Source: Thalassospira profundimaris (GTDB lineage: Bacteria > Pseudomonadota > Alphaproteobacteria > Rhodospirillales > Thalassospiraceae). Taken from it: 64,000 bases of DNA. Positions 16,276 through 35,203 of this stretch are shown in pieces. The notes under the pieces are model-generated. The model had not been told where the DNA came from. It searched no databases and saw nothing but the letters and a program-made list of their open reading frames with translations. Both the position numbers and the translations under genes were made by a program. Location of the stretch: positions 1 through 64,000 of the forward strand of contig NZ_JPWI01000015.1 of the NCBI RefSeq assembly GCF_003326795.1, in the 5' to 3' direction. Each line of letters begins with the position of its first letter. The first letter of the stretch is position 1.

Positions 16276-19200
16276 TTAGATGCCTCGTCCCTTACGCTTG
16301 ACCGGTTTGGTCGTGCGGTCGGGACGCTGAACAGTTTTCTGTTTCTGGTCCATGCCTTCTGCCAATCGCTGGTCCGCAGTTTTGCGGGCTCTGTTGATGA
16401 TCTCGGTTTGCAGAAGGTCCATTCCTTTTGACAGCTGGCCCTTCTTTGCAGGATCTGCTGTCAGGCTTTCTGCCTGAGCTGTTTTCAGACTTGCTGATGC
16501 AAGGGTATTCAGCGGCAAGCGGGCAAGCTGTTCGCTTAAGCCTTTAGTGTCAGTTCCGGCTACAACAGACGGAACTTTCTCGACATAGGACTTGCGCATC
16601 TCATCGCCGACGCCAGAGCCGAGATACCCCGTTTCGATGTTGGCATAACCCTGTCCTGTCGAACGAGCCCTTGCTTCAACCACGCTGAGTTTCACCTGAT
16701 CGGGAACGGGCAGTTTCTGTTCTATCGCTTTATCGACCATTGCCCCATGTGCTGCCTGAACCAGTTCACGGGCAGAGACTTTCGCACCAAGCGGTGCCGC
16801 TGTTTTGAAAATGGTTTCCTCCGAACCCTTGCGTTTCAGGGATAGGGTTTCAACTCCATTTTCTTCATGGCGCTCGACGGCATAATGCTTCTTGAAGACC
16901 TGCCCAAACTGACGTGAAGTGAGTTTCCAGGGCATTTCACGAGAATCATCAGCCCATATTTTGCGCCGTTCGCCACGGCGAGCCATGTATGTTGCAGCCG
17001 CAACACCGGCACCAATCGTACCAGCGGTCACAGCTCCACTTGCAACCGCTGACAGACCAGCAGTGCCACCGATTGTTGCAACTGCTGCTGTAACTTTCGG
17101 ACCAAGAGTGTTTTGCATTACGTCAATTGCCGGCTGGGCAATTGATTTTACACCCTGCATCCAGCTGTCCATCGTGCCGGCAACCTGAGCCTTCAGCCCA
17201 GGCAGCGTCTGATCGACTACACTTGTTTTCAGTTCAGATAAACCGGGAGCAAAACTGACATCTGGCGGGGTGATATTCCGAACAGCTTCGCCTGCAGATG
17301 CCGCAAAATCGCTTATCGTGTGCATGTCTGTGTAGAATTGCGATTTGACATGACTAAAGAATTCATCCGCGGAGGAAGAATTTGCCAGTTTTTCCGGAAA
17401 TGCAGTGAGCGCAGAATAAAACTGGTCAAATTTTTCCGAAATCAGTTCTTTTGCCAGTGCCGCGGTCGGGCCTGCATTCACAATCATGCTTTCAAAGAAT
17501 TGTTGCGTGTCAGCAGACAGACTTTGCCACAATTCCTGAGCAGATTCGGTGAAGCTGTTATTCTGAACAATCTCGCGCCACTGACCATCATCCATTCGTT
17601 CGAACATGGCTTCGATTTCACCTGCATTATCTGGTGAAATCGGAGCATTCGGAACGGTTTGAACAGCTGCTTCGGCTGCCTGGATCTGGGTGGAAGCAGC
17701 GGCAGCACCACCGATGCCGGCAGAAAACAGGGCAGATCGACCAACTTTTCGAACGACATTTGGCCCAAGCTCGGCCTCAGACTCTGCTGTATCGATATAT
17801 GCAACATTCTGACGCCGAATTTTCTCGTTGAACTGCCGTTCACGCCAATCCGCGTAACGATGCATGCGTTCTTCAGTTACTCCGAAACGCTTTGAAAGTG
17901 TCTCGGCCTGGGGAGAATGCTTGTCTACATAATAAAGTCGGTAGTCGGACCGTTCATCGAACCGCGCGCCTTGAAGGCGCGCCATTTGAACTTCGCTTTC
18001 ACCGATCGGATAAATATAGAGGCGATCTTCTTCCGGAATTTGACGGGCTATGACCTGGAATTCCGAGAGTGTCTGGGCAATTCCGGCTTCCTGATGGCTC
18101 CGGTGTTCAAGCCACTTTTCCCGTGCTTCAATCGTCCCGTAATTTTCGAGCAGATACCCGGCTTCAGGATGATCAAGAGTGACATAATATGCGCCGCTCA
18201 CTGCGTCGAAATGCAATCCGCGTTCGTCAGAACCGACGATTTGTCGTTCGACGAGCTTATCCATATCGCCCGGAACTACAAACAAGGGCCGGGCATTTGC
18301 ATCAATGATATTGGCAGAACCACGTGTCGCCATCGGGATTGTCGTTTCCTGTCCTGCTAGCTCGATCATGTCAAGAGTGCCACCGTTATTACCAATAAAC
18401 GCATTATGTTGCAAATATTGTGGAGACTTTGACAGAATAAGTCCAACGTCATCTTGCAACATAATGTCTTTTATATTGGATGCCAGTGGAGACTTTGTAG
18501 ATGTACGCTCTAACAAGTTGTTTTGCAAGATTTCAGCCTTCTCCGTCTTATAGCGGATGACCCGTGGTTGTTCCATGCGGCGACGGATAGAGGGCTGTGG
18601 TCGAACGCCTGCCGGAGATCGCCGCGCAAGGGCCGGACTACCTTGCTCGGATCGCCGCGCGATATAGGGATCGCTCGATCCGATATCTATCGGAGTCAGT
18701 TTCTGATGGCGCGCCAAATCCAGAGCAATTGTATTCATGCGCGTCGCAGGAATGGACGAAATGTTCTGCTCATCACTGATTCTGTGATATCCGGCCCGTG
18801 TCGCTGCTCTTGTGATTTCCATATCATCAAGGTGCTGAGCCATCATCTGATAGACTGTTTCCATTGGAATCATGTCGGATTTAAGACGACGACCATACAT
18901 CATGATCGCGTCACCAAGGGCTGGCAGATTTGCCGCCTCTGCGAGTTCTTTGGCCATCTCGACAGTCAGATCAGACGACATTTCCAGGACTTTTGCGCGC
19001 CGGGCAACTTCACCAGTGCGCGTCTGTCGGAACACATCCTGCCAGGAACGGAAACCATTGCCCTGAAGAATATTATTCATCCGTTCAAAAAGATTCCGCA
19101 AGGGACCGAGACGTTGGCCATCACCTGTTCCAAGTGCCCATTGCGCAAATGCTTCAGCCGCTCTTTCTTCGCCACCGAAGCCACTCATGATCACCCGTTG

Positions 19201-22200
19201 CTCTTCGGGGGTCAGAAGCGGCACAAGCGAATGATAAAGCTCATGCAATCCGGTTAAGCGTGGATCACCTTTGCTGATATCGGTTGATATCGGCATGGCA
19301 TCAGTATGACGGAAATAAAGCCCTAGCACCGGTTGCCGATCCGGATTTCCTTCAATGGTACCATCGGCAAAAAGGCGATCCACAAAGCGAAGATCCACAT
19401 CCGGATTGATTTCTCCTACCAGTTCCGTCAGCTCCTCCTTGATCCTTGCAAGTTGGGGTTCGAATGCTGCATCAAGCTGGTTGAGATAGAATGCCGCATA
19501 GTCGGAAATCTGATCAGACATTTCGGGCGCCCAACGCCCGTATAATGACCCGCGCGGCCCTGTTGCGGAGACAAAATCGCGAATGGTGGCATAAACCCAT
19601 TTCCCGTTGTCGCCTGGATAAAGAACATAACCCGGGGAAATGGGGTGAACTTCATCGGTATAGCGATTAATACGGCCTGCCAGCGTACCATTCAGCAGGC
19701 CGATTTCCCGAAGATATGAGGATCGTTTGTCCCCTGTACTTTCCTCGCTATCAAAAGCTCGGGTAATTTCATCAAGAACATGTTTGAGCTCTTCCCGACT
19801 TTGCGGTGTAGCCTGATAAGCAAGTTTTAAACCGTCAAAACCGAACCGATTGGGAACGAACTTGCTCTCCGGGGTCGTGGTCATTGAATGGTCAAACCGG
19901 TTCATCCCGGTGTTTTGCAAGGAGGATGTTGCAGTTTCAGCCAAATTCGAACTTTTCTGATGTGTAAGCGCTATCGTATTGACGGGAATGACGGATTCCG
20001 GATCAAACGCGTGTCCGACTTCATACCCATACTCATCAAGCATGAGTGCACCATCAAATCCAAGTTTGCGCAGCTCACTGAATATGCTTCGGCGCAGGTC
20101 GAGAGGATCTCCGCCGATGCCTTGTTCAGCAAGTCGGTTTTCCCACCAGCTGACCACTCGGCCATCGGCAAGGATGTCGCGCAATTGCTCAGGTGTTTCA
20201 ATTCCATAACTCTCTTTAAGGTTTTCCACCATTTTCAAGAGGTTCGCGCGCCAACCATAACCGTTTAGTTCTGTGCTCGTAAGTTTTGCCATGTTCTTGA
20301 CACGGACATGAACCTCGATCTGACTGTGACCAGCAGCAACAGGATCGTTGTAATAGGCAATGCCATCAATCATTGGCCGCCCGACAAAAGCTCCCGATGG
20401 ACTGACTGGGGCATACATTTTCCTGGTGAGATCAAAGCCGCGTCTTGCCGCGGCATCTTTCTCAACAGCAGGGTAGTCCGGTTGCTGACGGGTCGCTGCA
20501 TGACTTTCTGCCAAATATTCTCCGTCCTGTTGCTTGAGAACAACAAGATCGATGGAGCGATTGCGCAATTGCTCAATCGCACGCTCCAGCATTTTGTTGT
20601 TCATTGTGCCAGAGACGCGAACCCGCGACATATCATCAAGGAACTTTCCGAGCTGATTACGAACAGGCTCAAAGTGCCGCGCGACCAGACGGGCATCCCC
20701 ATCAAACAGTACATATTTGTCACCATTCTGAACGAGGAAGACAGGAGCAGGGTTATTTGTCTTCTGTTCGTCAAAGACCCGCACAAGTGCGGCCAAACCG
20801 CCCTCCTTATCATGGGGCGTTTGATCTTCGAGATCCTGTTCCGTTTGTGTTATCTTGCGTGCAGAGACGACGGCGTCTTTGTTCTCCCCACTAATGGCTG
20901 TCGAAATGTCGCTGTCGCGCACCACTTCTGTTTGGGGATCAAAGTTCTTCAGGCTGATATTGCCGTCAAGCCCGGCCGCCACAGAGACTTTCAGCCCGCG
21001 CAAGGTCATTTGCCTGGCTTGATAATCTATTTCTTCGCGATCAATGGCGATTGATCCGACGTTATGAACTTTCTCGAATTTGCTTGTCAGTTGCGGGTCT
21101 GCCTTTGCGATGGTCTCAACATTGGCGCCAAATGTCCGGAAGCCCTCACCATCTTCAACAAAGACAACACGATCCGGGTGACGCTTTGCCAACTCCGCAT
21201 GCCGATCGATAACTGATTGTGCAGAAATTTCTTCCTGCGCTTCGGTTTCTGCGGCACTGCCGACACGTGCCTGACGCCAGGTGGCTCTGCTAAGGCCCTC
21301 GGCAAGCATCAGGCGCTTGTTCAAGGATGCGAGTTTGGCAGTGACCTCCGGAATATCTGCTTCTTTGAAGGAAGTAATGTCCTGATCAGGCTCAAAATTG
21401 GTTTTGAGCAATGGCACGTCGTCTGAAAGTTGACGGGCCAGCAATCCGGCAATCACATAGCGATCGCCATCGATCAGGGCAGGAACTTCGCGGTTACGCG
21501 CTGCCAAATGGAGATCAGCGTAGCGATCTGCAATCGGCTTCTCCGTCCAGGTACTTGCGCGTTGGCGCGCGCGTTTGGTTTCGCGTTCTTGTCTGAGCTG
21601 GGGATCATCGATGTCCTCGATCGAAAGGGTTTCGATCTCGCGCTGGTTGCCAGAGAAGCTCTCAAGTGCAATCTTGCGATTATCATCAAGACGGGCAATG
21701 ACAACGCGATGTTGCCCAGCCAGCGTCGCGGCGATCTGCTCAACGTCCTGCGCGCTCACTTCGATCTCTGCAATATCGCCGATCTCGACAAGCGGGAGCG
21801 TTTCAATCATATCGAAGGCTCGCTTCGCATCCCGGTCAAATATCTGTGCTTTGTCATTCTCGATGAAAATGAGAAGCGCATCGTTACCGGCAAGACGGCG
21901 AACTTCTTCTGCTTGCATAAAAATGCTGGCCAGCCGTGCATCGGCCTCTGCGGCTGCTCGTCCTTCTGGACCTGTAAGAAGCAAACGCGGAGCCTCTAGA
22001 GCCGCAGCCTGTTGAGCGGCAGCCAAAGCTGGGCCGACCATCGTATCGGTCGCTCGACGGTAGATGCTTTTGCGCTCAATCGCATCCCACGCAACTGAGA
22101 CGTCCGACGTGTCGGCAAGAAGTGTCCTTTTTGTGCCGTTCGAATTGAACTGCACGAAATCGAGACCTTTGGCCCAGGCCAGTTCAGTTACGGCCGAGAT

Positions 22201-25200
22201 GACGGATTCATCGATATCCCCCCCGGGTAGGTTTGCAAGAGATACAGCAGCCAGTCCCGGTGTTTGTGCCAATTGTGCAAGAAAATCATGCGCTGTTGGG
22301 TTGTCGCTGGTGAGGTCGACCCCATTTCCCCGGCGCAAATAGACCGGTACTGCTTCGTCAAACAATCCGTCACTTTGAGCATCAGTACGACGCGTGAAGA
22401 GCTCGGGTTTGCTGTTCGCGTAAGCCTTTTCGAGTTCGGGATACTCCTTGTTTGGCACCGACAGCCAATGCACGTCGTTGACGTTATATCCGCGCTCCTG
22501 AAGGACGGCGAGATCGAAAGAATCTTTCTGCTCTGCTTTCCAGTCTTTCAGACGCTCGATCTCGGCTTCGCCGCGCTCCTGTTCCCAACGTGCCGTACGT
22601 TCGGCATGTTCAGCTTTTTCGCGACGGGCCATTTCGATTGAAGTCTCGAGTTGATCCCAAGCAAGTTCCACGTCACGGGAGTTGAAAATGACCAGTTCTT
22701 TCTGGTCATAATCGTAGGGTTCCCAGAGCTTTACACCATCGAATTTGTCAGATAGCCATGCCATCAATGCGTCTTTGAGATCACCGTTATAGTTCCCAGC
22801 TGCAACATAGTCTTGACGTCGGATGGCATCCTCAAATGCCGTATAATCCAACTCATTGACCTTCTCTGAGACAAATTCTGCGATGACCTTATCTTCATCT
22901 TCACCAGAATCGACCCTATCTCTGACCACCTCAAATTCATGTGCGATGTCGTAATAGGTTGTCGACAAGCCTAGCTTAAGCATGTCTTCATGCGTTTTGA
23001 AGAATTCTTCAGTGATCGCCCGAACGTCCGCTGCCCAGGGCTCGACTGTCAGGTCAGCAATCCGGCCAAGATGCGCACGTACAGGTGCTGCGTCTTCCAT
23101 GCCGATATCGAGAGCAAGATCGCGATCCGGATAGAGATAAAAACAGCCGGACGTCTGCGACATCTCTGCTGCCAAATCGATATCCGGATCTGCGGCGTCG
23201 TCGACAACCAACCAATAGATATCGGATTTGGAAAATTCAGGCGAAACACCCTGCTTCAGGTTGTGTTCAATATAGGCATCGCGGTCGATGCTGCGCGCAT
23301 CACTGTAGCCATCTTCAAGAACCTTGTTGGCATGAGCCCGTTCAGTGCGGCTCATTTGGTCTGGTGATATCAGGTTTTTGAAGTCATAACCTTTGGCCAT
23401 CTTCAGGGCTGCGGCAGCAGCACCTTGAGCGGTATACATGAAGCGATTGCCTGGCAACAAAGCCTGACCGCTTTCCTTATGCAGGACGACAAAGCGCAAT
23501 GAATCGCTATCAAACGAGCCTGGACGCAAACCCGGGCGCGGGAAGGGCACAACAGCCAGTCCTGGTGCATCCGGGTGGATGAAGCCGGGATATCGTACGG
23601 GACCGCTGGGCGAAAGCAATGGAACGTCGGCCGTTGTCCAACCTGCCGGTGCTGCGCCTCGGCGCATTGCCCAAGTGTCATATTGGTGATGTGCCGGGAA
23701 GCTTTTGACTTGATCATCATTGTAAATGGTCAAACCATTATCGCCAGTGCCGGTCGAGTAATAGACATTGTTAAACCGGTGCACAAAGCGACCTGCATCC
23801 GCTTCCAGATGAAGTGCGGATAGCAACTGATCCTCGCTGACATAATCGGGCACATCGAGAATACGATGAATGCGACTGCCATCGGGCTGCGGTCCCGGCG
23901 CACCGGCATGACGGACAGGGACCAGTCCGCCTTCTTCTTCCTCGCGCAATGCCACAGGCCGCCCGGATGAGAACTGCAAGGAACGGGCGAAGGGGGCTTG
24001 TGCCTCACCGCGGAGTTCCCACGGCATGACGAAGCGCCCTTCGCTTGCAAGAGCGCGTGCCTTTTCCTTGCTGACCCGCTTCTCGGTCATTTCCGGAACC
24101 GCAGCACCGGTAATTATCCGTGCTTCTGCCAGTTTGTCTGATGCCCGAAGATTGATCTTCTTGTCTTCCATCATGGCGAACAGGTTGGACAGTTGATCGG
24201 AAGAAATATTGGCGACCATTGAAGTGCCGCTTGAGACAAAGTCACCGGTCAGTTGGCGAATGTCGCGATCAAGCCAGTATTTTCCGCCACTTGAGCGTGC
24301 TCTGTTGGCGCGCAGCTCAATCTGATCCTTACGTTTGATAAGGGCTAGTGCGTTGTCTGTCGTAACCGTCACGCCACCTTCGTCAAGATATCTGCGGACG
24401 TGATCCAGTGTTGTCAGAGGGACCTGTGCGTGCGAGAGAACCTGTTTGAGCTCAGTGCCTCTTGGCAAAAGCAGCCCAGGCTGAACACTGCCATCAGCAG
24501 TCGTGAAGTAGAGCACCTGAGCATCACGGAATTGATCCGCTGCGGCCAACACGTTACCGGTGGCGATCAGGCGTTCCTCTCGATCAGCTCTGGCCGGGGC
24601 GTCGAATGCCTCCGGGATTGCAATGCTTCGAAGCTTGCCATCAACCATGTGGCTGGCTTGAGAGGCTTTCGTCAGCGTGTAGTCTCCCGCCAAGGCCTTT
24701 TCACCAGGCAGACACAGCTCATTTAAACGAAGTTCAATTTCCTTGGCCCCGTTCGCAACATAAAGCTGCACGGTCCATGCCGAGGGAGCCACCGGGTTGA
24801 CAGATTGGCCGCGCTTCTTCAAGCCACCGACAACCCCATACATATCCTTCCCATCGGGCGTGTTGATCAGAACCGTGCTGCCGATATGAAAGTTGTCAAT
24901 CAGCTTTTCAAAACGCTGGCGATCGCCATTCAGACGTTTCTCCACATTCTGCCTCCGGCGTGGAGATGCTCGATCTACAGAACGCGCAGCGTAACGCGAA
25001 AACTGTTCGCCAATGCGTTCTTTAAGGGCCGCGGCATGGGCGCGACCACTCTTCGCGGTTTCTGACAAGGCCGTGTCATCCGGCAACCCCAAAGAACGGT
25101 TCGTTTCGGCCAGGACACGGGCGAATGGATATGGTTTGTCATTGTTGCGCACATCCATTTTCTTGATGTGTACAGGGCCCCCAAATGGCGATTCCGCCCG

Positions 25201-28200
25201 GGTCGATTTGGTCAGTTGCACCTGACCGAGCTCGCGTGCATCGAGATCAAGAACGCGGGCTTCATCACGCAACAGTCCGAGCCGTTCTGCGCGTTCATGT
25301 TCAGCCTTGAATTCCGTCTCGAATTCATCAAACAGCTTTTCCTGAAGCTTGATTGGCAACATGATCATCCGACCGGTGACTTTTCGCGCAGCGCCGTCGA
25401 TCTCCAGACCACGTGCACCTGAGGCAAGTTTCAGGGGGAATCCGAAACGACGATGGATTGCCGGATTGTTCTCCATCACTGTTGCCGCAGCTCGATCACC
25501 AATTTCGTTCAGGAAGTCGACACCGCCTGACTGGAGCAGACTTGATTGATTGGCGGTCGTGTTTGCGTTCAATGACCGAAGTTTTTGCTCAAGTCGGGCA
25601 GCCTGGCGCTTGGCAGCCGGGATGTTCGTCAACAAATGCAGGTAACGTGGCAGGGTTACCTGACCTGTTCTGTTGACCCGACCTTTCATTTGGACATGTT
25701 TGGTGACATCAGGATGCGCCTGGGCAGTGATGTCCAGGCGGGGTCTTTGATCGGCAAATGTCGCGCTTGCATGCAGACTTGTGCCACTTGCAACGCTCTC
25801 GTTGCCCAGGACCGCGTCCAGCGATCCATTATTAAAGGCAGTTTCGGTCCGAACGTCTGCAGCTTTTGAGCGTTCGGCCGCAGATCGGCGATAGTAAACA
25901 GGGACATCGCCCGAATAATCGATACCTTCAGCGCGCCCGGTGAACTCACCGAACGTATAACCCGCTTTTTCGATGCGCGACTTGATGTGATCGATCGGAC
26001 TGACTGGCATACCAGTCCAGTCGGCCTTGGCGATCAAATCAACGACAGCGTCATAAAGGGCAATTCCCTTACTGCCAAGCTGTGCGTCTGAAAGATGGAT
26101 GCGCTCTTTTTCAGAGAAAGGCGTCCCGATCGTGACATCCCGCGAGCGATCAAGATATCGCTTGAGCACATCTCCAAAATTCGCATCTATGGCGTCACCG
26201 GGTTGCATCTCATAGGAGGCAGCGAATTCAGAGAGAAATGCCCCCATGGTGTTTGCAAGGGTAATGAATGGCTTCTCGCCGTTCTTAAGACCTTCGATAG
26301 CCTTATCCGCAACTGTATCGGCCATCAGCGACAGCTCGGCTTGTTGGGCGATATTATGTAGCAGAGAAGTGAAATTGACCGAATTAATCCCGATTTCACC
26401 GGTTGCACCATCTGGCAGAGCACTTTCGCCGGCCGCTTTTATCTGATTGCCGAGATCCCCTGCCAGCAGGTCTTGTTTGTAATTATCAAAGGCAGCAATT
26501 GCCTCAAGAATCTCAGCAAAGCGATCGAAACGGGCGTCATCGATATCAACCACTTCAAAATCGTATTTGATGCCGGTCATGGCGCGCTCAAGTCGCATAT
26601 ATTGCCCGGATTCAGACAGCATTGATGAAACCATTTGCTGCATGGGCAACCCATGCTGAGAGATGATGTTGCCAATTTCCTTGGGATCTCGCACCGCATG
26701 GCGAAGATCTGTCCGCCCATAGAGATCCATCGTATGGGGGGCCTTGGCCCAGGTGGCCGAACTATCGTAAACACCCTTGGCATCCCACATAAGTTCACGC
26801 GCAAACTCTGCCCGATTGGGCGGCCCAGGCTTCTTGAACAATTGATCTTGCCCGCCGCCATTATGACTTTCATCGCGCACCAGAAGGGCATTGCGGCTAA
26901 GGCGCTGTAACAGCATTCGACGCAGCGTTTCCTGACCTTGCACTGTCTGGGTCTGAGCCCAGGTCGTCATCACAAAATCATAGTCTTTCCCGAGATGACC
27001 CTGGTTCCGAATACGGATGAGTTCAGCGTCATGAACTGCTTTGTTTGGCGTTGAAAGCCTGCGTCCGTCCGGTAGGTCAAGTGCTTTCGCACCGGACAGC
27101 CCGTCATTTGTGATAAGCGGGCGCAAGTGTCCATAGCCAATGTCTGTAAGGTCGCGCATGATGGCGGGATAGAGGTTCGGGCGTTCAGTAATAAAAACAG
27201 GCGTCAGTCCATTCAAATGGGCATAGACAAGCATTGCAGCTGCAACACGCCCCTTCCCAATCCCCATAAGGTGACCGTTGATGAAGGACGCACCTGTTTC
27301 ATGCTGGTGAATCGCAAAGGCCGTGGCATCAATCTGTTCTGCCGACAGGGCGTTGTAGAGCTCCTCATGGTTCGCATAACCCAACTTTTCCTGCACAAAA
27401 TCATCGATATCACCAACGGCGCGGAGCAGTCGCTGCTTCGCCTTGTCAAAGCTGTCCACGAGGTTCGCTGGCATGAGCGTGTCGAGCGGTTTGCCTGCTG
27501 ATAGGGGATTATATTGAACAAGAGTATCGCTCATGCCGACAGCTCCATCAGAACCTCGTCCAGATCCAGCATTGTTTGGGCGTTGGGTATCTTCGTCTGC
27601 GGTGTTGTCGGCAGGTTCCACGTCAGGGGAGCCAGCCAGGCTTGAAATTCCAGAGAGTCCATCAGCTCTTCCGGCTCCGTTTCCGTCAGTTCCGGACGGA
27701 TTGCTTTTGCGATCATCTCTGTCGCTCCGGGAAGAACCGTTTCGATCGCGACCAGCTTCGCCAGAAGAGCTTTCAGATAAATCGCCCGGGTGACGCTTTT
27801 GGTCTCGATCGGCAGAATTACTGTCCCGAACAGAGGAAACTCTGTCGGAGAGAAGCTTTGCCATGCCTGAAAAGGAAGTGCGTCGATCCAGCTTGTTGCT
27901 GTCATTTTCGAATGCATTACAAATTTCCTTCAGCTGATCGATGGAGTGGATCACAGGTGGTGTCGTCAAAGTGGGAAGGGGCAAGTTGGACTTGCCTTTG
28001 CCATTGACCACAATAATGTCAACAGGCCAGGACGCCCCTTGCTGGCGATAAAGATCACCAGACAGGGTCACATGGTCGACGACATTGAACGTGTCATAGA
28101 GCTTCCAGTGGAAGCGTCGCAGGCCTGCCTCATCGTAGGCTTTTGCCCGTTCTTCCGAGTTAAATGCTCGAACAGAGGGCAGGATGAGGACAGCACGGCC

Positions 28201-31200
28201 ATCCGCGGGCAAGCTGGTTAAACCCTGCCATACAATTGCGTGATGGAGCCGGGACGTTGAAACGACCGGATCTCCGGAATAGCGAATGGGCGAAAGCCCG
28301 TTATGCGACATGTAGAGGACTTTACCCTGACCCTCAGAAAGCGCCCCAAATGGCGGGTTGGCAACCAGATGATCAATCTCTCTTGGCGGTTTGCCATTGG
28401 CCGCATCGAAGTTCCATTTATGCCGAGCCTGCAGGCCCCGAAGGCGGGTTGGATCGATTTCGTTCGCCACCCGATCTTCCGGGCGCTGCCCAATCAGTAA
28501 AGCGCCGTTACCTGCTGTCGGGTCATAGACTGTTTCACCGGGTTTTGCGCCGAGCAGGCGATTGACAAGGGCTGCGATCGTCAGCGGCGTTGAATAGGCC
28601 TGCAGCTCGACGGAACGTGATGTACGTTTGGCAAAGTTTGGTAATTGGCTCTGCAGGTCTGACATCTTGTCGATCAAATCTGCTGTCGATCCCGCGTGGT
28701 TTTCATAAATTTGACGGGCCGTGGCCACCATCGCTTGTTCCGCGATTTCTTCTACGGTTCGGGAAAGCGGGTCGGAAACCCTGATCTCGATACCGAGACA
28801 CTGGGCTGCCAGATCACGCAATTCACGCGCCGACTTGAAACGATATCCTTCGGCAATTTTTTCTTCGAACGCGTTTTTCAACAGATCAGCATTTTCAGGT
28901 GATATCGTGTCCTGGAAAACTGACTTGAAGGCAACAGGCCCGGCAATACGGGCATCTCTGTTCGAACCATTTGAACGCGCCTGGTCCAATCGTTCCTGCC
29001 GTCCGGCATCAATTGAGCTGAGAATGTGATTTTCAATTAACTCAAAGCAGGATCGCCGCGTGTCGTGGTTCTCAGGGGCATTTATCCAGCTCTGCGCATC
29101 TGCGCGTGTAACATTGAGTTCGGAGACCTTTTCCAGTTCCAGCACACAGCTTTTTGCCGCTTGTTCTGATGCAAATCGGTGACGCAGAGCGTTGCAGGAA
29201 AAACCGGTTGGCAGATGTGTAATGTGCCAGCCGGGCTTTGATGACAGGCTCCGCGAGATTGCGAATTTGCCATGAACCAATGCATCATCAAGTTTATTAA
29301 TGACAAACACGCCAGGGCGGACTTCCGGCCCGGACACAAAAATGTAATCACGTCTGGCAAAGTCCTCTTGAGGTCCGTCCGGGTTCAAGGGCCGCGAACT
29401 ATCGCGCAATGCAACGACATCTTTCCCTTGCGCATGCGCAATCGCCAGGACCTGAGCTTCAGCAAAAGTCGCAGCCTGAGTGACCTCTATGCCGTGAAGT
29501 TTGAGTTTGAAAGCTGAATCTGATGGACTGGTCCAAATCTGATATCCCAAACCAGAGTCATCAGCGATAGATCTCGGGGCCGCCTGGTGCAGTTCTTCAA
29601 AGGCCGCATCGCGCGCACGGCTTTCTGCCTCGATGAAGATACTGTTTTCGTAATGGTTCAGAAGTCGCGTTGTATCAATATCGCCGCTATAGAACCCTTT
29701 GGCTTCCAGTTCTTCTCTGACAATCGCACGTGCAGTCCCTTCTACATCCTCAGGGTCCGTAGCATGACCAAGAACTTCAAGACGTGCGATTGCTTGATCT
29801 TTGTATTCATGGGCAAGTGCTGCGATATAATTCTCATCAATAGAGAAATCCTGTTCATAGCGCGACAGGTACTCGGCTTTAACCTGGCGTGAATAGAACG
29901 GATAGAGTTCTTCGGAGCGCGCTGTGATGACGCCATCGTCGGGAAGATCTTCAGGCGCAACCGTCATTTCCGCATCCGGGTCAAAGAACGGTACAGTGTC
30001 ACCAGTTTTCCAACGTGGTGTTGTCAGAGCCTCATAGGTAATATCGGGTTCCCCGTAATGCTCGCAATAGGCATCGAAGCGGTTTTCATAGTCTGCAACA
30101 CGATCGAGCAAAGGTTGTGCCTGGCGCAGTGTTGTTGGATGTGACAGCTCAAGATTATCAAGGAAAGCACCGACTTTTGAGCCGAGTTCCTTATGGTAAT
30201 CGTCATAGAGTTTGTGTGGCGGCAAAGCCTCTCGCTCCGGGTGAGGTTCCGAAAAGCCAAATTTTTCGGCAGCATCAAATACAAGATTGGCATGCCACAG
30301 CAGGTCCTTGACATCCTGCAAGCGTGTATATTCCCCCGGTACACCGGGTGCAGGATCATTTGATGGGACAAATGTATGCTCCATCAAGTCCGGCCCTGCG
30401 CCCAATTTTTGCAGGGAACGCGACAGATCGTGATAGTTTTGGCCAGTTGAAAACTGGACTTCTGCTTCGTCGTCCAGCAGTCCGCCAAATTGATGCGACG
30501 CATCCTGGATCGCGGAACGTTTGTTCAGAATGTCCTCATAGCGCGCCTTAACATAGGCCGGGGTCATCATTGGTTTGCTGAATTGCTCAAGCGACAGTGT
30601 ATTTCCGTGTGAAACAACAGCAGGTATGCCTCGAAGGGACATGTTCAGATAGGCCATATCGCAGGCTGTGCGATCGATATCCGTCAAGTGGGCGCGGAGA
30701 TGTTTTTTGGGGTCAATATGCCGATTATTCAGGGCTTCTGCCTTGGCAATTGCCATCACGCCCGCGCCGCAGGCAGGATCGGTCATCGAGACGTAGCTTT
30801 TACCGTCAAGCAGATCTGCGCGCTGTTTGTTGGTCAGATCGCCCGTGGTGATCTCACTCATCAGTCTTGCGATGCTGTAGGGCGTGAATTCTTGACCGAG
30901 GGCGGAATTTGGCGCGATCTGCATATGGAGATTGCCAAGCACATCGTCGTCAATCTTGTTCGCGGCGTTTGTTACCTCGGCAAGGATCGCTGGATAGGCC
31001 TCTCGTATGTCCGCCAGACGGCGTTTCTGGCGGTAACGATCGACGACATCGAGATACTGGTTCTCGTTTTCACGCCAGGCATCTGAATTCTTGGGCATTG
31101 AGGCCCCGAGAAATGCGCAGCGCGAGAGAGTGAGGAAATCATCCCATTTCTGAGACATCTGCAATGAAGGATCGGCACTTTCCAGGTGGCCGAGGATGTT

Positions 31201-34200
31201 TTTTTCATAATGGCGGTGATCAAGCGCTTTGAAGGCCACAGCACCTGCAAATCCGCCCGTGCGCTCATCGCGGATTACGGGCTCTGCCTTTTCCTTGATG
31301 CGGTTTGCCAAACGGATTGTATTGCTTGTTTGTCGCGCGATATTGCGCAAGTTTGCGCTTTCTCGTGCGAAATCTTCATGATCAATAAGATCGTGCCAAT
31401 CTGCTTTCTTCTCGATAAGTTCGGCAAAAGCCATGGCATCCTGGTCTCGACGGAAGAATGGCTTGATCGGAAGGCCGGTTGCCAGATGAATAACCGCCGT
31501 TCCCGGCTGCTTCTCGCCCAGATGCCAGTCAGTCCGAACGAGCCCAAAGCTTCCGCGCGCAAACCCTTGCGCAAGGCGCGACGGGCAGGGCGTTTTTTCG
31601 GAGAGGATCAGAAGGCGCGGCGTCCACCGATCATCAGGCATTTGAGGATTGAGTTCTTTGAAAAGATCCTCGCCATCAATCGCGCGTACACCGCGCAAGG
31701 CATATTGACCCCCAATGTCATGCGCGTCTTCGAGCGCATCCATGGCCGTTTCACCGCGGGCATATCCAAGGAACGTCTCATCACTGATAGGCCCGGGCGC
31801 AAAGACTTCCATATCCGAGGGATCATCCTCGCGGAAAATCGCGCGATATCCTTGACCAGACAGGTCTGTCAGCACAATCGCATGGGCAAAATGGGCCAGT
31901 TCTGCATCGGCGAGTTGACCCAGATGTTGCTCAAATTCGTCGGCAAGTTCAGTGAAGATCAACTGGTCCTTGACATCATCGTCATTGGCCATGTGCTCCA
32001 AAAGCGTTTCGCGTTCACTTTCGTCAAGCTGATGCCATTTCCAATAAGTCGCACTTGCCCAGCTGCGAAGAGCTTCGCGCGAGGGAGTGTAGCTATCTAT
32101 ATTCTCCTCATGCCAGTTCTCCGCAATGTGGCTCTCAAAGGCGTTTTCGCGGATCCGTGACACAAACCAGTTCTTGTCCTGCTCGGTCGGCTCAAACCGG
32201 GCATGTTTATCAAGGTCAAACCGCGGGGGTTCTGTGTCGAGCAGATTTGCTGAAAATGCGACAGGACCGGCAAAGCCCGCAAGCTTTTTGACAGGCTGTT
32301 GGTGAAGGCGATTACGCTGTTGGCTGCGCATGACGCGCATGTTCTCAGCGGCTTGTCTACCTGCCTGTTGTTGAGTCGTTTGAACAATATCTTCGTAATC
32401 TGGAAGATTGTCGTGGGTCAGTTTTGCCCAATCAGCCTGTGGGCGGAGTAAATCGACAAATCGCTTCGCAGCATCCTCTGTTCCCCATACTTGCCCGACT
32501 TCAACCCCGGTCGGCAAATGATAAGCCTGATGTCCCGGTTGGCCCGAAAAAGGAGACACAAGCGCGAAGTCTCCACGTAACCAGCTCGGACGACGAGCGG
32601 CATTGGTACCCGACGGTGTGATGATCCGGATTGATGACAGTGAATTTGCAGTTCGCCGCCAGCCTGTATCATCATGACTTTCGTTGAGGGGCCACGACAC
32701 TGAGCGCATACCATAGCGCGCATGGCCGACAGCTGCACGAACTGCATCGTTATAGTTTTTCGTTTCACACAGACGTTCTGCTTGATGGCTTGCAACATCG
32801 CAATAGACGTAATATTCGCCTGTTGCTGTGCGCATAATGGCGTAATCCGCTATTTCCTGTTCGTCAAACCCGGCAATGACATGTGCACCGTCAAATCCGT
32901 CTTCCAGGCGCTCTCTGATCAGTTCATATTCATTGTCATAGAAGGTCTCCCAATAAAGATCGTGGTTGGCATCATTGACTTCCCACGTCCAGGCATCGTG
33001 TTCGACATCTTCTCGAGCGACTTCCTTGAGCTCGTCAACCAGTGCGTCGGCAATCAGGTCATACAGGTCTGCAGATTGTTCGTTATCGAGCCTGACATTA
33101 TCAGCAATGTCGTTATCGATCCGAAATTCCTGTTCGATACGACGACGTGTTTCATCTGCGAAGGAAGCGCTCTCTGCAAGCTCTAGCAACTCATGGGTGG
33201 GTTTGTAAAAATCCTCGGCATGAGTTTCGATCAGACTTTCTTGCGTAAGCTGTGTGCAACGAATTTGATCGGTCCAATCGCAATAAAAGTCCTCCTGCTC
33301 TGCCTCTCTTTCAGCGTTCCAGATCGCTTCGCCCATTTCATGCGTTTCAATGGGCTCAAAGTCGTTCTCGGACCCGAATTCCGGGAGGGGACGGAAATCG
33401 CCAGCCATATTGGCGGGCAGATATTTGCGCATATGCGGATAGTCATCGAAGACCTCGGCTGGAACCGGGAGTTTCTTTTCGATGGCTGCGCGTATTCGGG
33501 CAGCGTGTTCCTGAGAAAGTTTTTCTTTGCAGTTCTGGCTGTAGCGGCGGATCTCGGCGCGTTTCGAAAGTGACGAAACAATTTCTTTAAAAGTGTGTTC
33601 CTCCCCATCGAAGACATGCAGCAAGCCGTCTTTAAGGACTGCTGATGCCTGCGGCTTTTTGTTCTCGAAATAAGTAGGTTTGCGGAAAACGACGTAATCA
33701 TTCGGGTTTTCGACATCGGCGAATACTGAAACCGCACCCTTGATTGAACTCGCCACAGCTTGCTCATAGTTTCGACCAGCCATTTCCTGCAAAGCGATCT
33801 GATCATCGATACTCAGATTGATGATCTCATATTGTTGCAGATATTCGTCTTTTGAGAGAGACCAATCCTGTCTTCCTGAGGAAAAGACTGCACCTTGAGC
33901 CTTGAGCAAGGCAGCCGCTTCCTGAGTTTTGGGGGCGACCATATTCAAAGCATCCGGGGCAGACAGATCAAGTTTGATCGACCAGTCGGTCAGCGAGCCG
34001 GGCTTGCCGTCAATCAGTTCGTTAATCGCGAGACGTGCTTCATCCTGATGGGAAAATGCAGATGCATCGCTCAATCGCGTCAAGTTCAGAAGAGCGATCT
34101 GATCAAGGTTGCTGGAGGGCCATTCTTCTTCATGAATGCGCCATCCATGACCGCTCGGAAGCCCGGCCTCAAAGATGGCTACATCGACAAAATTTCCGGT

Positions 34201-34494
34201 ATGCCAAGCGCGTACCGAAGTATTCTCTTCGGCGACATAGCGTTGACTTGATGCATGGGATTCGCCTGATGAAAAGACGGCCTTGCCGTCAATAGTTAGC
34301 CAGACTGGTGGCTGCACAAATCGGCTGTGACCGATTTGGTCTCGCAGGTCGAGATATTGCTCGACCTGATCTTGCCCTGTCGTCCCATTGCCGATAACCC
34401 GTCTTTCCAGGCGCTTGAATTTGCCAACCTGCGTGCTCGACGCCGAGACTGGTCGTGAAAGCAACAATTGGGATTTATCAAGCGAGATAGGCAT
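16276..34494 (-). CDS. Giant polyvalent-type protein: two methylase domains, Strawberry-notch-like helicase, ART-like and zincin domains
   Basis: ATG 34494 has AAGGTGG upstream and opens about 6,072 codons without a stop. Three repeats with HL[PA]TG and [FI]AG[PA]VAF motifs lie in residues 640-1860. A first methylase domain has TDPACGAG (near 1238) but no NPPY; a second has YDPTAGNGALL (near 1989) and NPPFG (near 2045). After a Ser/Asp/Arg-rich linker, a helicase has GIGKGR (near 2409), RDESHN (near 2538) and QMKGRVNRTGQ (near 2935). ART-like ends lie near 3920 and 4815, and a zincin HELYH near 5083. Glycine/alanine-rich hydrophobic stretches lie near 5590 and 5800-5840. Such proteins are thought to be delivered with mobile DNA to protect it in the recipient; that role is inferred. 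Confidence 0.85.
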   Translation of the reverse strand: MPISLDKSQLLLSRPVSASSTQVGKFKRLERRVIGNGTTGQDQVEQYLDLRDQIGHSRFVQPPVWLTIDGKAVFSSGESHASSQRYVAEENTSVRAWHTGNFVDVAIFEAGLPSGHGWRIHEEEWPSSNLDQIALLNLTRLSDASAFSHQDEARLAINELIDGKPGSLTDWSIKLDLSAPDALNMVAPKTQEAAALLKAQGAVFSSGRQDWSLSKDEYLQQYEIINLSIDDQIALQEMAGRNYEQAVASSIKGAVSVFADVENPNDYVVFRKPTYFENKKPQASAVLKDGLLHVFDGEEHTFKEIVSSLSKRAEIRRYSQNCKEKLSQEHAARIRAAIEKKLPVPAEVFDDYPHMRKYLPANMAGDFRPLPEFGSENDFEPIETHEMGEAIWNAEREAEQEDFYCDWTDQIRCTQLTQESLIETHAEDFYKPTHELLELAESASFADETRRRIEQEFRIDNDIADNVRLDNEQSADLYDLIADALVDELKEVAREDVEHDAWTWEVNDANHDLYWETFYDNEYELIRERLEDGFDGAHVIAGFDEQEIADYAIMRTATGEYYVYCDVASHQAERLCETKNYNDAVRAAVGHARYGMRSVSWPLNESHDDTGWRRTANSLSSIRIITPSGTNAARRPSWLRGDFALVSPFSGQPGHQAYHLPTGVEVGQVWGTEDAAKRFVDLLRPQADWAKLTHDNLPDYEDIVQTTQQQAGRQAAENMRVMRSQQRNRLHQQPVKKLAGFAGPVAFSANLLDTEPPRFDLDKHARFEPTEQDKNWFVSRIRENAFESHIAENWHEENIDSYTPSREALRSWASATYWKWHQLDESERETLLEHMANDDDVKDQLIFTELADEFEQHLGQLADAELAHFAHAIVLTDLSGQGYRAIFREDDPSDMEVFAPGPISDETFLGYARGETAMDALEDAHDIGGQYALRGVRAIDGEDLFKELNPQMPDDRWTPRLLILSEKTPCPSRLAQGFARGSFGLVRTDWHLGEKQPGTAVIHLATGLPIKPFFRRDQDAMAFAELIEKKADWHDLIDHEDFARESANLRNIARQTSNTIRLANRIKEKAEPVIRDERTGGFAGAVAFKALDHRHYEKNILGHLESADPSLQMSQKWDDFLTLSRCAFLGASMPKNSDAWRENENQYLDVVDRYRQKRRLADIREAYPAILAEVTNAANKIDDDVLGNLHMQIAPNSALGQEFTPYSIARLMSEITTGDLTNKQRADLLDGKSYVSMTDPACGAGVMAIAKAEALNNRHIDPKKHLRAHLTDIDRTACDMAYLNMSLRGIPAVVSHGNTLSLEQFSKPMMTPAYVKARYEDILNKRSAIQDASHQFGGLLDDEAEVQFSTGQNYHDLSRSLQKLGAGPDLMEHTFVPSNDPAPGVPGEYTRLQDVKDLLWHANLVFDAAEKFGFSEPHPEREALPPHKLYDDYHKELGSKVGAFLDNLELSHPTTLRQAQPLLDRVADYENRFDAYCEHYGEPDITYEALTTPRWKTGDTVPFFDPDAEMTVAPEDLPDDGVITARSEELYPFYSRQVKAEYLSRYEQDFSIDENYIAALAHEYKDQAIARLEVLGHATDPEDVEGTARAIVREELEAKGFYSGDIDTTRLLNHYENSIFIEAESRARDAAFEELHQAAPRSIADDSGLGYQIWTSPSDSAFKLKLHGIEVTQAATFAEAQVLAIAHAQGKDVVALRDSSRPLNPDGPQEDFARRDYIFVSGPEVRPGVFVINKLDDALVHGKFAISRSLSSKPGWHITHLPTGFSCNALRHRFASEQAAKSCVLELEKVSELNVTRADAQSWINAPENHDTRRSCFELIENHILSSIDAGRQERLDQARSNGSNRDARIAGPVAFKSVFQDTISPENADLLKNAFEEKIAEGYRFKSARELRDLAAQCLGIEIRVSDPLSRTVEEIAEQAMVATARQIYENHAGSTADLIDKMSDLQSQLPNFAKRTSRSVELQAYSTPLTIAALVNRLLGAKPGETVYDPTAGNGALLIGQRPEDRVANEIDPTRLRGLQARHKWNFDAANGKPPREIDHLVANPPFGALSEGQGKVLYMSHNGLSPIRYSGDPVVSTSRLHHAIVWQGLTSLPADGRAVLILPSVRAFNSEERAKAYDEAGLRRFHWKLYDTFNVVDHVTLSGDLYRQQGASWPVDIIVVNGKGKSNLPLPTLTTPPVIHSIDQLKEICNAFENDSNKLDRRTSFSGMAKLLSDRVSSVRDSNSADRDQKRHPGDLSESSSGEAGRDRNGSSRSDRDDRKSNPSGTDGNGAGRADGLSGISSLAGSPDVEPADNTADEDTQRPNNAGSGRGSDGAVGMSDTLVQYNPLSAGKPLDTLMPANLVDSFDKAKQRLLRAVGDIDDFVQEKLGYANHEELYNALSAEQIDATAFAIHQHETGASFINGHLMGIGKGRVAAAMLVYAHLNGLTPVFITERPNLYPAIMRDLTDIGYGHLRPLITNDGLSGAKALDLPDGRRLSTPNKAVHDAELIRIRNQGHLGKDYDFVMTTWAQTQTVQGQETLRRMLLQRLSRNALLVRDESHNGGGQDQLFKKPGPPNRAEFARELMWDAKGVYDSSATWAKAPHTMDLYGRTDLRHAVRDPKEIGNIISQHGLPMQQMVSSMLSESGQYMRLERAMTGIKYDFEVVDIDDARFDRFAEILEAIAAFDNYKQDLLAGDLGNQIKAAGESALPDGATGEIGINSVNFTSLLHNIAQQAELSLMADTVADKAIEGLKNGEKPFITLANTMGAFLSEFAASYEMQPGDAIDANFGDVLKRYLDRSRDVTIGTPFSEKERIHLSDAQLGSKGIALYDAVVDLIAKADWTGMPVSPIDHIKSRIEKAGYTFGEFTGRAEGIDYSGDVPVYYRRSAAERSKAADVRTETAFNNGSLDAVLGNESVASGTSLHASATFADQRPRLDITAQAHPDVTKHVQMKGRVNRTGQVTLPRYLHLLTNIPAAKRQAARLEQKLRSLNANTTANQSSLLQSGGVDFLNEIGDRAAATVMENNPAIHRRFGFPLKLASGARGLEIDGAARKVTGRMIMLPIKLQEKLFDEFETEFKAEHERAERLGLLRDEARVLDLDARELGQVQLTKSTRAESPFGGPVHIKKMDVRNNDKPYPFARVLAETNRSLGLPDDTALSETAKSGRAHAAALKERIGEQFSRYAARSVDRASPRRRQNVEKRLNGDRQRFEKLIDNFHIGSTVLINTPDGKDMYGVVGGLKKRGQSVNPVAPSAWTVQLYVANGAKEIELRLNELCLPGEKALAGDYTLTKASQASHMVDGKLRSIAIPEAFDAPARADREERLIATGNVLAAADQFRDAQVLYFTTADGSVQPGLLLPRGTELKQVLSHAQVPLTTLDHVRRYLDEGGVTVTTDNALALIKRKDQIELRANRARSSGGKYWLDRDIRQLTGDFVSSGTSMVANISSDQLSNLFAMMEDKKINLRASDKLAEARIITGAAVPEMTEKRVSKEKARALASEGRFVMPWELRGEAQAPFARSLQFSSGRPVALREEEEGGLVPVRHAGAPGPQPDGSRIHRILDVPDYVSEDQLLSALHLEADAGRFVHRFNNVYYSTGTGDNGLTIYNDDQVKSFPAHHQYDTWAMRRGAAPAGWTTADVPLLSPSGPVRYPGFIHPDAPGLAVVPFPRPGLRPGSFDSDSLRFVVLHKESGQALLPGNRFMYTAQGAAAAALKMAKGYDFKNLISPDQMSRTERAHANKVLEDGYSDARSIDRDAYIEHNLKQGVSPEFSKSDIYWLVVDDAADPDIDLAAEMSQTSGCFYLYPDRDLALDIGMEDAAPVRAHLGRIADLTVEPWAADVRAITEEFFKTHEDMLKLGLSTTYYDIAHEFEVVRDRVDSGEDEDKVIAEFVSEKVNELDYTAFEDAIRRQDYVAAGNYNGDLKDALMAWLSDKFDGVKLWEPYDYDQKELVIFNSRDVELAWDQLETSIEMARREKAEHAERTARWEQERGEAEIERLKDWKAEQKDSFDLAVLQERGYNVNDVHWLSVPNKEYPELEKAYANSKPELFTRRTDAQSDGLFDEAVPVYLRRGNGVDLTSDNPTAHDFLAQLAQTPGLAAVSLANLPGGDIDESVISAVTELAWAKGLDFVQFNSNGTKRTLLADTSDVSVAWDAIERKSIYRRATDTMVGPALAAAQQAAALEAPRLLLTGPEGRAAAEADARLASIFMQAEEVRRLAGNDALLIFIENDKAQIFDRDAKRAFDMIETLPLVEIGDIAEIEVSAQDVEQIAATLAGQHRVVIARLDDNRKIALESFSGNQREIETLSIEDIDDPQLRQERETKRARQRASTWTEKPIADRYADLHLAARNREVPALIDGDRYVIAGLLARQLSDDVPLLKTNFEPDQDITSFKEADIPEVTAKLASLNKRLMLAEGLSRATWRQARVGSAAETEAQEEISAQSVIDRHAELAKRHPDRVVFVEDGEGFRTFGANVETIAKADPQLTSKFEKVHNVGSIAIDREEIDYQARQMTLRGLKVSVAAGLDGNISLKNFDPQTEVVRDSDISTAISGENKDAVVSARKITQTEQDLEDQTPHDKEGGLAALVRVFDEQKTNNPAPVFLVQNGDKYVLFDGDARLVARHFEPVRNQLGKFLDDMSRVRVSGTMNNKMLERAIEQLRNRSIDLVVLKQQDGEYLAESHAATRQQPDYPAVEKDAAARRGFDLTRKMYAPVSPSGAFVGRPMIDGIAYYNDPVAAGHSQIEVHVRVKNMAKLTSTELNGYGWRANLLKMVENLKESYGIETPEQLRDILADGRVVSWWENRLAEQGIGGDPLDLRRSIFSELRKLGFDGALMLDEYGYEVGHAFDPESVIPVNTIALTHQKSSNLAETATSSLQNTGMNRFDHSMTTTPESKFVPNRFGFDGLKLAYQATPQSREELKHVLDEITRAFDSEESTGDKRSSYLREIGLLNGTLAGRINRYTDEVHPISPGYVLYPGDNGKWVYATIRDFVSATGPRGSLYGRWAPEMSDQISDYAAFYLNQLDAAFEPQLARIKEELTELVGEINPDVDLRFVDRLFADGTIEGNPDRQPVLGLYFRHTDAMPISTDISKGDPRLTGLHELYHSLVPLLTPEEQRVIMSGFGGEERAAEAFAQWALGTGDGQRLGPLRNLFERMNNILQGNGFRSWQDVFRQTRTGEVARRAKVLEMSSDLTVEMAKELAEAANLPALGDAIMMYGRRLKSDMIPMETVYQMMAQHLDDMEITRAATRAGYHRISDEQNISSIPATRMNTIALDLARHQKLTPIDIGSSDPYIARRSEQGSPALARRSPAGVRPQPSIRRRMEQPRVIRYKTEKAEILQNNLLERTSTKSPLASNIKDIMLQDDVGLILSKSPQYLQHNAFIGNNGGTLDMIELAGQETTIPMATRGSANIIDANARPLFVVPGDMDKLVERQIVGSDERGLHFDAVSGAYYVTLDHPEAGYLLENYGTIEAREKWLEHRSHQEAGIAQTLSEFQVIARQIPEEDRLYIYPIGESEVQMARLQGARFDERSDYRLYYVDKHSPQAETLSKRFGVTEERMHRYADWRERQFNEKIRRQNVAYIDTAESEAELGPNVVRKVGRSALFSAGIGGAAAASTQIQAAEAAVQTVPNAPISPDNAGEIEAMFERMDDGQWREIVQNNSFTESAQELWQSLSADTQQFFESMIVNAGPTAALAKELISEKFDQFYSALTAFPEKLANSSSADEFFSHVKSQFYTDMHTISDFAASAGEAVRNITPPDVSFAPGLSELKTSVVDQTLPGLKAQVAGTMDSWMQGVKSIAQPAIDVMQNTLGPKVTAAVATIGGTAGLSAVASGAVTAGTIGAGVAAATYMARRGERRKIWADDSREMPWKLTSRQFGQVFKKHYAVERHEENGVETLSLKRKGSEETIFKTAAPLGAKVSARELVQAAHGAMVDKAIEQKLPVPDQVKLSVVEARARSTGQGYANIETGYLGSGVGDEMRKSYVEKVPSVVAGTDTKGLSEQLARLPLNTLASASLKTAQAESLTADPAKKGQLSKGMDLLQTEIINRARKTADQRLAEGMDQKQKTVQRPDRTTKPVKRKGRGI

Positions 34495-34597
34495 TCGACC
34501 ACCTTGGATATTACTTTGCAAGATTAATGCAGTATATCTGCGTTTGGCGTGGCCGAAAAGGAATTATATTGCAAGAAATTAGATTGTCTAAGCAGTC
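34495..34597 (-). promoter_or_regulatory. Promoter region of the giant gene with two TTGCAAGA half-sites
   Basis: TTTGCAAGATTAATGCA (from 34515) and TTGCAAGAAATTAG (from 34570) both contain the half-site seen as a perfect palindrome elsewhere in the conjugative part. A TATAAT sequence lies close by on the minus strand. The first site looks like a palindrome with a degraded second arm. Confidence 0.5.
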
Positions 34598-35203
34598 TCA
34601 GGCAAATTTGCGGCTTGCCCAGGGAGGGAAATATTCGAGATATTTCTCCGCAACAAGATCAGGTGCCATGATCTGAATGGGTCTATCGAGTAATCCAAGC
34701 TCACGTAAGGTGTCCAGCGATGGCTTTGCTGAAGGGGGCAGGGCGGCTTCCGGATATCGTGCAAATCGATAAAGGTTCAGGTAATGGCCTGCCGTAATAG
34801 CCTTTTCCGCATGATCTCTATCAGTGGTGAAATCGTCAGGAAGGCTGTCAAATCGTCGTAGAACCTTGTCGTTTAGTAACTCACGAACACGCTTTAGCTG
34901 ATCGAGATACCCGGGTTCAAGAACCTGAGTAATTGGTACGGTAACCCCTTTGAAGACATATTGCCAGGCGGCTTGCAAGAGCAGATAGCGGATGACACGG
35001 GGATCATTTGAGTTTGAAAAATGATTAAAGATGCTCACGGCATGAAGTGCGGATTGACCCACAGATATTTCAAGCGTCAAGGGTCCGACATAGACCGGCA
35101 TTTCGGCCAAATTCTTGGCAATATCGGTAATGTCGATATGGGTTTGTAAAGGACGCAGTGGATCGAACTCTATGCCGCAGGGCAGGGTGATAACACCAAA
35201 CAT
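34598..35203 (-). CDS. Degenerate HD-domain (YfbR-like) protein
   Basis: The 201-residue protein begins in a TGATG overlap with the GapR-like gene. It follows the layout of small HD phosphohydrolases: an N-terminal ID-DIA segment, SVGQSALHAVS in place of SVAxH, LLLQAAWQYVFKG in place of LLHDxxExxxGD, and later W/F-P-P-A near the end. The catalytic His and His-Asp are changed (to S51, Q77 and A78), so it should not bind metal or hydrolyse nucleotides. It resembles the intact HD protein at 37180-37932. A binding or regulatory role is inferred. It is also possible that the similarity is only partial. Confidence 0.5.
   Translation of the reverse strand: MFGVITLPCGIEFDPLRPLQTHIDITDIAKNLAEMPVYVGPLTLEISVGQSALHAVSIFNHFSNSNDPRVIRYLLLQAAWQYVFKGVTVPITQVLEPGYLDQLKRVRELLNDKVLRRFDSLPDDFTTDRDHAEKAITAGHYLNLYRFARYPEAALPPSAKPSLDTLRELGLLDRPIQIMAPDLVAEKYLEYFPPWASRKFA

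Follow-up and report, generated by a model that had tools for sequence, protein, structure and literature searches.

Here, we report that a single 18.2-kb gene in a stretch of Thalassospira profundimaris DNA (the window, 64,000 nucleotides at its full length) is real, conserved, rare and of a known kind, i.e., it encodes a giant polyvalent protein. Our preferred reading, to which we assign a probability of about 0.45, is that a conjugative Thalassospira plasmid uses this chain as a polyprotein for anti-restriction and establishment, which would be delivered and cut by zincins at its linkers; the delivery, the cleavage and the methylation target are what we infer. Zincin processing of polyvalent proteins was proposed in PMC5512222, the available part of which names no site, and a motif marking the joints of the chain, together with adjacent zincin genes, makes the idea testable. 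The arrangement as we read it from the sequence appears to be new: the giant contains a zincin-like domain, a second one has a gene of its own, a further relative is degenerate, and a candidate processing signal recurs along the chain. To the original prediction made for this DNA we add the zincin relatives encoded nearby, the MutS-I domains, a module present in three copies and the linker motif. If the reading is true, processing would explain how a chain of ~660 kDa can be useful during conjugation; in a stricter version of the reading, given below, the giant would be a conjugative counterpart of viral polyproteins, and polyvalent proteins would gain a cleavage code, for which we found no proposal among the titles and opening lines of abstracts in the literature. 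The features are collected in Table 1.

Table 1. Features of the giant gene and its surroundings, by position in the window
Feature	Position	Strand	Remarks
Downstream zincin relative, 832 aa	13710..16208	-	HEXXH lost: HRELFS; NQSVFV and NVAVFE in orthologues
Giant polyvalent protein gene	16276..34521	-	6,081 codons from TTG 34521, no internal stops
Gly/Ala-rich hydrophobic segment, residues 5810-5843	16993..17094	-	Kyte-Doolittle
Two DUF5710-like repeats, residues ~5435-5469 and ~5518-5554	17812..18264	-	sequence comparison
Motif variant VIRYKT (Y5324), past zincin	18544..18561	-	VIRYSIG / VIRFSTG in orthologues
Internal zincin-like domain	18916..19500	-	HELYH at residue 5093; against Azospirillum C-terminal region E 2e-56
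MutS-I copy B	20569..20787	-	PF01624 23.3 bits; E 1e-10 on segment alone
MutS-I copy A	20962..21204	-	PF01624 20.8 bits, cut-off 20.6
Weakly duplicated region, residues 3755-4180	21982..23259	-	internal similarity E 3e-4; ART-like by eye only
Motif SLQFSSG (F3517), between helicase region and C-terminal part	23962..23982	-	SLQFSLG / AMFSLG in orthologues
Strawberry-notch SNF2-type helicase, residues 2390-3082	25276..27354	-	Pfam AAA_34 and Helicase_C_4
DNA adenine methylase domain 2, residues ~1960-2150	28072..28644	-	PHROGs phrog_6380 DNA methyltransferase E 1e-10
Module copy M3, residues 1690-1880	28882..29454	-	hhalign; C-terminal AGPVAFK
Motif variant AGPVAFK (F1865), end of M3	28924..28944	-	VAFK/IAFK in orthologues
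Methylase-like domain 1, residues 1146-1330	30532..31086	-	Pfam N6_Mtase E 1e-15 at 1206-1319
Module copy M2, residues 950-1110	31192..31674	-	hhalign; C-terminal AGAVAFK
Motif variant AGAVAFK (F1097), end of M2	31228..31248	-	VAFK in both orthologues
Module copy M1, residues 600-770	32212..32724	-	unknown fold, C-terminal AGPVAFS
Motif AGPVAFS (F756), end of M1	32251..32271	-	FSVG/FSLG in both orthologues
Candidate processing motif AVFSSG (F213)	33874..33891	-	AVFSxG in all three giants
ORF of 201 aa between upstream zincin and giant	34598..35203	-	no family found
Upstream stand-alone zincin-like protein, 333 aa	35445..36446	-	HESWH; HEMWH in both orthologues
VirD4/TraG-type coupling protein	39993..42503	-	T4SS-DNA_transf E 3e-45
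VirB11-type ATPase	42500..43786	-	T2SSE E 1e-13
VirB10/TrbI	46196-48016	-	TrbI E 1e-31
VirB9	48017-49213	-	CagX E 2e-9
VirB8-like	49210-50133	-	VirB8 match 0.004, below cut-off
VirB4-like	51389-54112	-	VirB4-type matches 0.0015-0.004, below cut-offs
MobA/MobL relaxase	55954..57900	-	E 1e-7

The uninterrupted gene that had been predicted at 16276..34494 proved to be real and free of internal stops; position 34494 is an alternative ATG at codon 10, from which the product would be 6,072 aa long. Two orthologues, WP_317336981.1 (6,154 aa) on the complete 166,794-bp T. lucentensis plasmid NZ_CP136683.1 and a 6,105-aa protein of Thalassospira sp. MCCC 1A01428, are also single full-length frames, and the long open frame is therefore not a product of chance. 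The window giant is 43.6% identical to the former over 5,949 aligned residues and 43.9% identical to the latter over 5,946. Per 100 residues against T. lucentensis, identity peaks at 79 past the helicase (bin 3601), is 72 in the helicase itself and falls to its minimum of 20-31 at both termini and in a single internal bin, 1801.

Two methylase-like domains and a helicase with GIGKGR, DESH and QxxGRxxRxGQ motifs had been predicted, and all were located: motif I sites lie at residues 1248 and 1999, GIGKGR at 2420, DESH at 2550, and GRVNR at 2947 inside QMKGRVNRTGQ. Methylase-like domain 1, which has a homologue in the Azospirillum giant described below (E 9e-20), keeps DP[AT]CG[AS]G (DPACGAG in the window) and lacks NPP[FY] in the alignment of all three Thalassospira orthologues; it is probably a pseudo-methylase. 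Domain 2 retains NPPF (ANPPFG) in 3/3, in agreement with the NPP(Y/F) of gamma-class adenine methylases. Fused C-terminally to domain 2 is a SWI2/SNF2 ATPase, as in the DarB-like dyad, here of the Strawberry-notch subtype, with Pfam matches to AAA_34 at residues 2390-2663 (E 1e-7) and to Helicase_C_4 at 2858-3082 (E 3e-17), the latter matched nowhere else in the genome. Pfam gave no match at the position of LPD36 in DarB-like proteins, N-terminal to the methylase.

The ~160-residue module is triplicated, with hhalign E values of 1e-18 (M1-M2) and 9e-9 (M1-M3) and a range given as 1e-18 to 9e-8. Four tandem MutS-I repeats were considered and rejected: two exceed the curated cut-off, a third weakly resembles copy A (E 4e-4), and the fourth is unsupported. 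Outside the giant, MutS_I passed this cut-off on contig C1, in a MutS frame of 930 aa. The DUF5710 profile gave E 1.9e-4 in an orthologue (below cut-off) and E 8e-7 in the Azospirillum giant (above cut-off), and a short repeat joins residues ~335-368 with ~5921-5954 (E 1e-5). The ADP-ribosyltransferase-like ends of the original prediction gained no profile support: searches for ART domains with PHROGs, NCBIfam, PDB profiles and Pfam, the last taken to E 10, gave nothing credible; the best PDB sequence match of the weakly duplicated region is a serpin (E 0.006). AlphaFold2 with two-row alignments produced poor models of residues 3640-4200 (mean pLDDT 44.5) and of residues 4195-5310 including the zincin (mean pLDDT 37.7). 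As for the hydrophobic segments, one stretch does exist at residues 5810-5843, and it is weak: its best 19-residue Kyte-Doolittle mean is 1.46, and nothing in the window giant exceeds 1.6.

The MutS-I and helicase domains are DNA binders in known proteins, and the T. lucentensis plasmid encodes a topoisomerase and an SSB; both facts would suit a DNA-processing scaffold, in which methylase, helicase, MutS-I and DUF5710 aid second-strand synthesis and repair of the incoming single strands, with restriction evasion being secondary. We consider such a scaffold very improbable, since Pfam at E 0.01 found no primase, polymerase or ArdC-N domain in the giant.

The zincin of the original prediction was borne out in its HEXXH, whose H, E and H are invariant in all eight relatives aligned. 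No Glu beyond HEXXH is invariant among these eight: the ER/DR position is Glu in seven and Asp in azo_C, and the Glu of AAEAF is present in the four internal zincin copies only. Searches against known zincins gave no Pfam match to E 10 and PDB matches of E 0.33 or worse. The third zinc ligand and the peptidase activity are therefore uncertain. HEXXH is missing from the downstream relative in 3/3 Thalassospira copies. In the Azospirillum giant, a domain of the upstream type (HEGWH) stands at the N terminus and one of the internal type (HEIYH) near the C terminus; this fusion suggests that the stand-alone upstream zincin of Thalassospira functions together with the giant.

This Azospirillum protein is WP_137118925.1 of A. 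argentinense plasmid p5 (8,997 aa; NZ_CP032326.1 244195-271188, L019:16196-43189), annotated just as an AAA family ATPase; it contains two zincin-like domains, a DarB-like core, an AAA+ ATPase and DUF6884. It shares with the Thalassospira giant methylase-like domain 1, the region of residues 3459-4460, the C-terminal zincin and the FSxG motif, and it also has a VirD4 gene nearby. It differs in that a DarB-like core replaces the Strawberry-notch one, in its AAA+ ATPase, and in the N-terminal fusion of the upstream-type zincin.

The linker motif was first spotted as QFSLG-like strings in the Azospirillum chain and was then counted by an unbiased ranking. In the giant and its 1,928-aa neighbour, QFS ranked first among 10,271 three-residue patterns (9 occurrences versus 0.27 expected, P 2e-11), followed by FSxG (10 versus 0.84) and QYS (6 versus 0.17). 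One copy, RQYSLG at residue 331, directly follows the fused N-terminal zincin. None of the 12 [FY]S[LVITAS]G sites of the Azospirillum giant lies inside a recognised domain (P 0.003), where the domain intervals, 38% of the chain, were drawn by us from zincin, homology and domain searches. Upstream of the sites the sequence is linker-like, with fewer hydrophobic residues (P 0.003, 11 sites). The codons differ from site to site, and we therefore rejected repeated DNA as the source of these strings.

When the Azospirillum motif was applied unchanged to Thalassospira, the three giants were found to contain 6, 6 and 7 copies versus 0.70, 0.76 and 0.79 expected. The copies fall into nine columns of the Thalassospira alignment, three common to all, four to two and two single. 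The cores are better conserved than their flanks when every match is taken (P 0.018, 0.0004 and 0.001, from one shared alignment). Several results weigh against the motif. The recurrence is weaker in Thalassospira than in the Azospirillum giant, the six copies of the window giant equal the maximum among 1,000 shuffles, and the unbiased ranking in the Thalassospira giants alone did not place FSxG among the top patterns. Likewise, QFS, QYS and FSxG are absent from the seven top patterns of each of 11 comparator phage and plasmid proteins. A universal signal of zincin proteins was rejected, as among nine distant HEXXH frames of at least 500 aa eight are without [FY]S[LVITAS]G and one has a single copy. 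In a relative from the same order (G042), three contig fragments hold two copies versus 0.16 expected (pooled P 0.011). The first copy precedes a zincin-like domain, the second follows a different one, and the third fragment holds none. Please note that one of these copies lies on fragment L029, whose zincin is without HEXXH, and had already been seen in the nine-frame comparison.

We take Q-[FY]-S-x-G to be a candidate signal at which a delivered polyprotein with an anti-restriction role would process itself. Briefly, the giant would be synthesised in the donor cell and would pass, entire or in parts, via the adjacent T4SS into the recipient; its own zincin and the stand-alone upstream zincin would cut linkers carrying [FY]-[SK]-x-(G), mostly preceded by Q in Azospirillum, and so release the modules. 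The methylase-helicase module might then track on the incoming plasmid DNA and methylate it while the MutS-I domains grip the DNA. Two non-catalytic partners would complete the set, namely methylase-like domain 1 and the downstream zincin relative that has lost HEXXH. A stricter version, i.e., a true plasmid-encoded polyprotein whose joints carry [FY]-[SK]-x-G preceded by Q or A, cut by the zincin pair and tuned by the dead relative, seems to us rather doubtful.

It is quite possible, if short of probable, that the chain is an anti-restriction polyvalent protein acting uncut. At the domain edges, [FY]SxG would then serve as a structural cap or as a signal for docking or translocation, and any active zincin would hit recipient proteins. 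According to the available part of PMC5512222, the zincin-bearing ArdC and TraC1 are transferred at full length, and according to that of PMC11288057, T4SS substrates can have internal translocation signals. AGPVAF[SK] closes each copy of the triplicated module, so these three sites may belong to the fold, and the zincin lacks an invariant Glu as third zinc ligand among its eight relatives. Against action uncut, however, the Azospirillum motif occurs in many contexts, with the linker-like upstream sequence given above, including the place right after the fused zincin. Precedents for processing come from phage P1, in which DdrB is processed (available part of PMC5512222) and the prohead protease Pro cuts the N terminus of DarA (available part of PMC12810830). 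We found no zincin cleavage motif or site for polyvalent proteins in the literature as far as it was accessible, including the available parts of these two papers.

The window is the beginning of contig C7 (141,176 bp) of a 4.68-Mb genome. A RepA homologue is located on this contig at 96.4-97.5 kb, its longer piece being 41% identical. The T. lucentensis plasmid encodes RepA, VirD4, VirB11, VirB10, VirB9 and MobA/MobL as well. C7 is probably a plasmid or part of one, and conjugative. The VirB10/TrbI-like protein of the window has an unusual T4SS core extension, with a Calx-beta domain (E 4e-8) and weaker Ig-like (Cep192/ASH-type) matches, below cut-off, ahead of the TrbI domain. At 60815-62011 (minus strand), a 398-aa fusion of an N6_N4 DNA methylase with an Mrr N-terminal domain is encoded; it may represent an orphan methylase to which a reader domain of the restriction type has been attached. 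The region 3046-12156 carries a metal and redox cargo, in which a multicopper oxidase and a PCuAC copper chaperone are accompanied by two ZIP transporter-like genes (one of them matched below cut-off), a DsbA-like protein and an M23 peptidase.

For 166 of the 170 annotated features of the T. lucentensis plasmid, we ranked the net charge of the last 20 residues; the four excluded were merA, a 126-bp ORF and a pair of IS3 transposases. The upstream zincin came first (tied with the topoisomerase, second), the giant sixth in a tie at +4, the downstream gene 22nd and the relaxase 52nd; the basic C-terminal tails of the giant and the upstream zincin may point to transfer, and this is suggestive only. 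The Fic protein of the same plasmid (L065:4282-5682) has a very basic C-terminal tail as well (rank 5/166 in a tie) and may likewise be transferred.

In PLSDB, the T. lucentensis plasmid is classed as non-mobilizable despite its T4SS and MobA/MobL genes. This typing weighs against a cleaved and delivered polyprotein, along with the uncertain peptidase activity, the missing ArdC-N match, the low tail rank of the relaxase and the poor AlphaFold models. It is also in line with a giant that stays undelivered and defends the resident cell against competing phages and plasmids or excludes them from it. Use against other elements is allowed by the available part of PMC5512222; PADLOC reported weak methylase matches (best mads_2, E 3e-8), and methylase-helicase genes are common on plasmids, with residues 1-3000 matching 2,320 of 72,556 plasmid records. 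Such a resident role nevertheless seems unlikely to us, because the giant gene has transfer genes near it in the window, in T. lucentensis and, as VirD4, in Azospirillum, and because neither a nuclease nor a toxin domain was named when the giant was scanned with Pfam, PHROGs and NCBIfam.

The plasmid matches of residues 1-3000 start at ~1876 or later, i.e., in the methylase-helicase core, in 29 of 30 among the matches listed, and residues 3082-6081 match only 12 of the 72,556 records. The giant gene itself is present in 3 of 29 genomes of the family (one genus, own genome counted). A profile of residues 3,541-5,308 was matched in 4/317 genomes of the order, at one locus in wider genome contigs, and nowhere in viral contigs. 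The zincin profile was matched in 5/317 genomes of the order, 4/385 of the class and 3/398 of the phylum, the own genome being counted each time, and at four loci in viral contigs.

The proposal that the giant belongs to the polyvalent proteins of conjugative elements agrees with the presence of methylase, helicase, MutS-I and HEXXH domains in one chain and with the T4SS and relaxase genes that adjoin it. It is among the larger members, as expected, and not exceptional: 8,997 aa in Azospirillum and the 12,242 residues of a protein in the available part of PMC5512222 exceed its 6,081. The same source describes polyvalent proteins as proposed to be delivered, links the pairing of methylase and SNF2-type helicase to DarB, which shields DNA in cis from type I restriction, and reports ArdC-N in 93% of conjugative polyvalent proteins. 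Compared with the latter, as far as that part describes them, the Thalassospira giant has the same many unrelated domains per chain, a zincin-like HEXXH domain, the methylase-SNF2 dyad, MutS-I and the T4SS and relaxase context; it differs in that no ArdC-N was detected, in a zincin without Pfam match, and in the stand-alone and degenerate zincin relatives next to it. MutS-I is reported there from Bacteroidetes and Firmicutes, whereas here it occurs in an alphaproteobacterium.

Strawberry-notch plasmid proteins of Gloeobacter, Chroococcidiopsis, Leptolyngbya and Pseudomonas resemble the giant in methylase 2 and helicase (31.5-40.4% identity, from about residue 1876), the Gloeobacter match extending over two annotated genes; they differ in length (1,492-2,578 aa) and in a chain without HEXXH. 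With DarB of phage P1 and the DarB-like phage giants, the Thalassospira protein shares an adenine methylase joined to an SNF2-type ATPase, and HEXXH is found too in the DarB-like giants of Klebsiella phage LASTA (4,433 aa) and Erwinia phage Pavtok (5,007 aa). In contrast to these, the Thalassospira helicase is of the Strawberry-notch type, and the phage context and packaging are missing. QFS, QYS and FSxG are not among the top patterns of the LASTA and Pavtok proteins. In Pseudomonas phage Itty13 (L058), a DarB-like open frame of 4,112 aa lies on the strand opposite the annotated genes, and this record seems to be misannotated in the DarB-like region.
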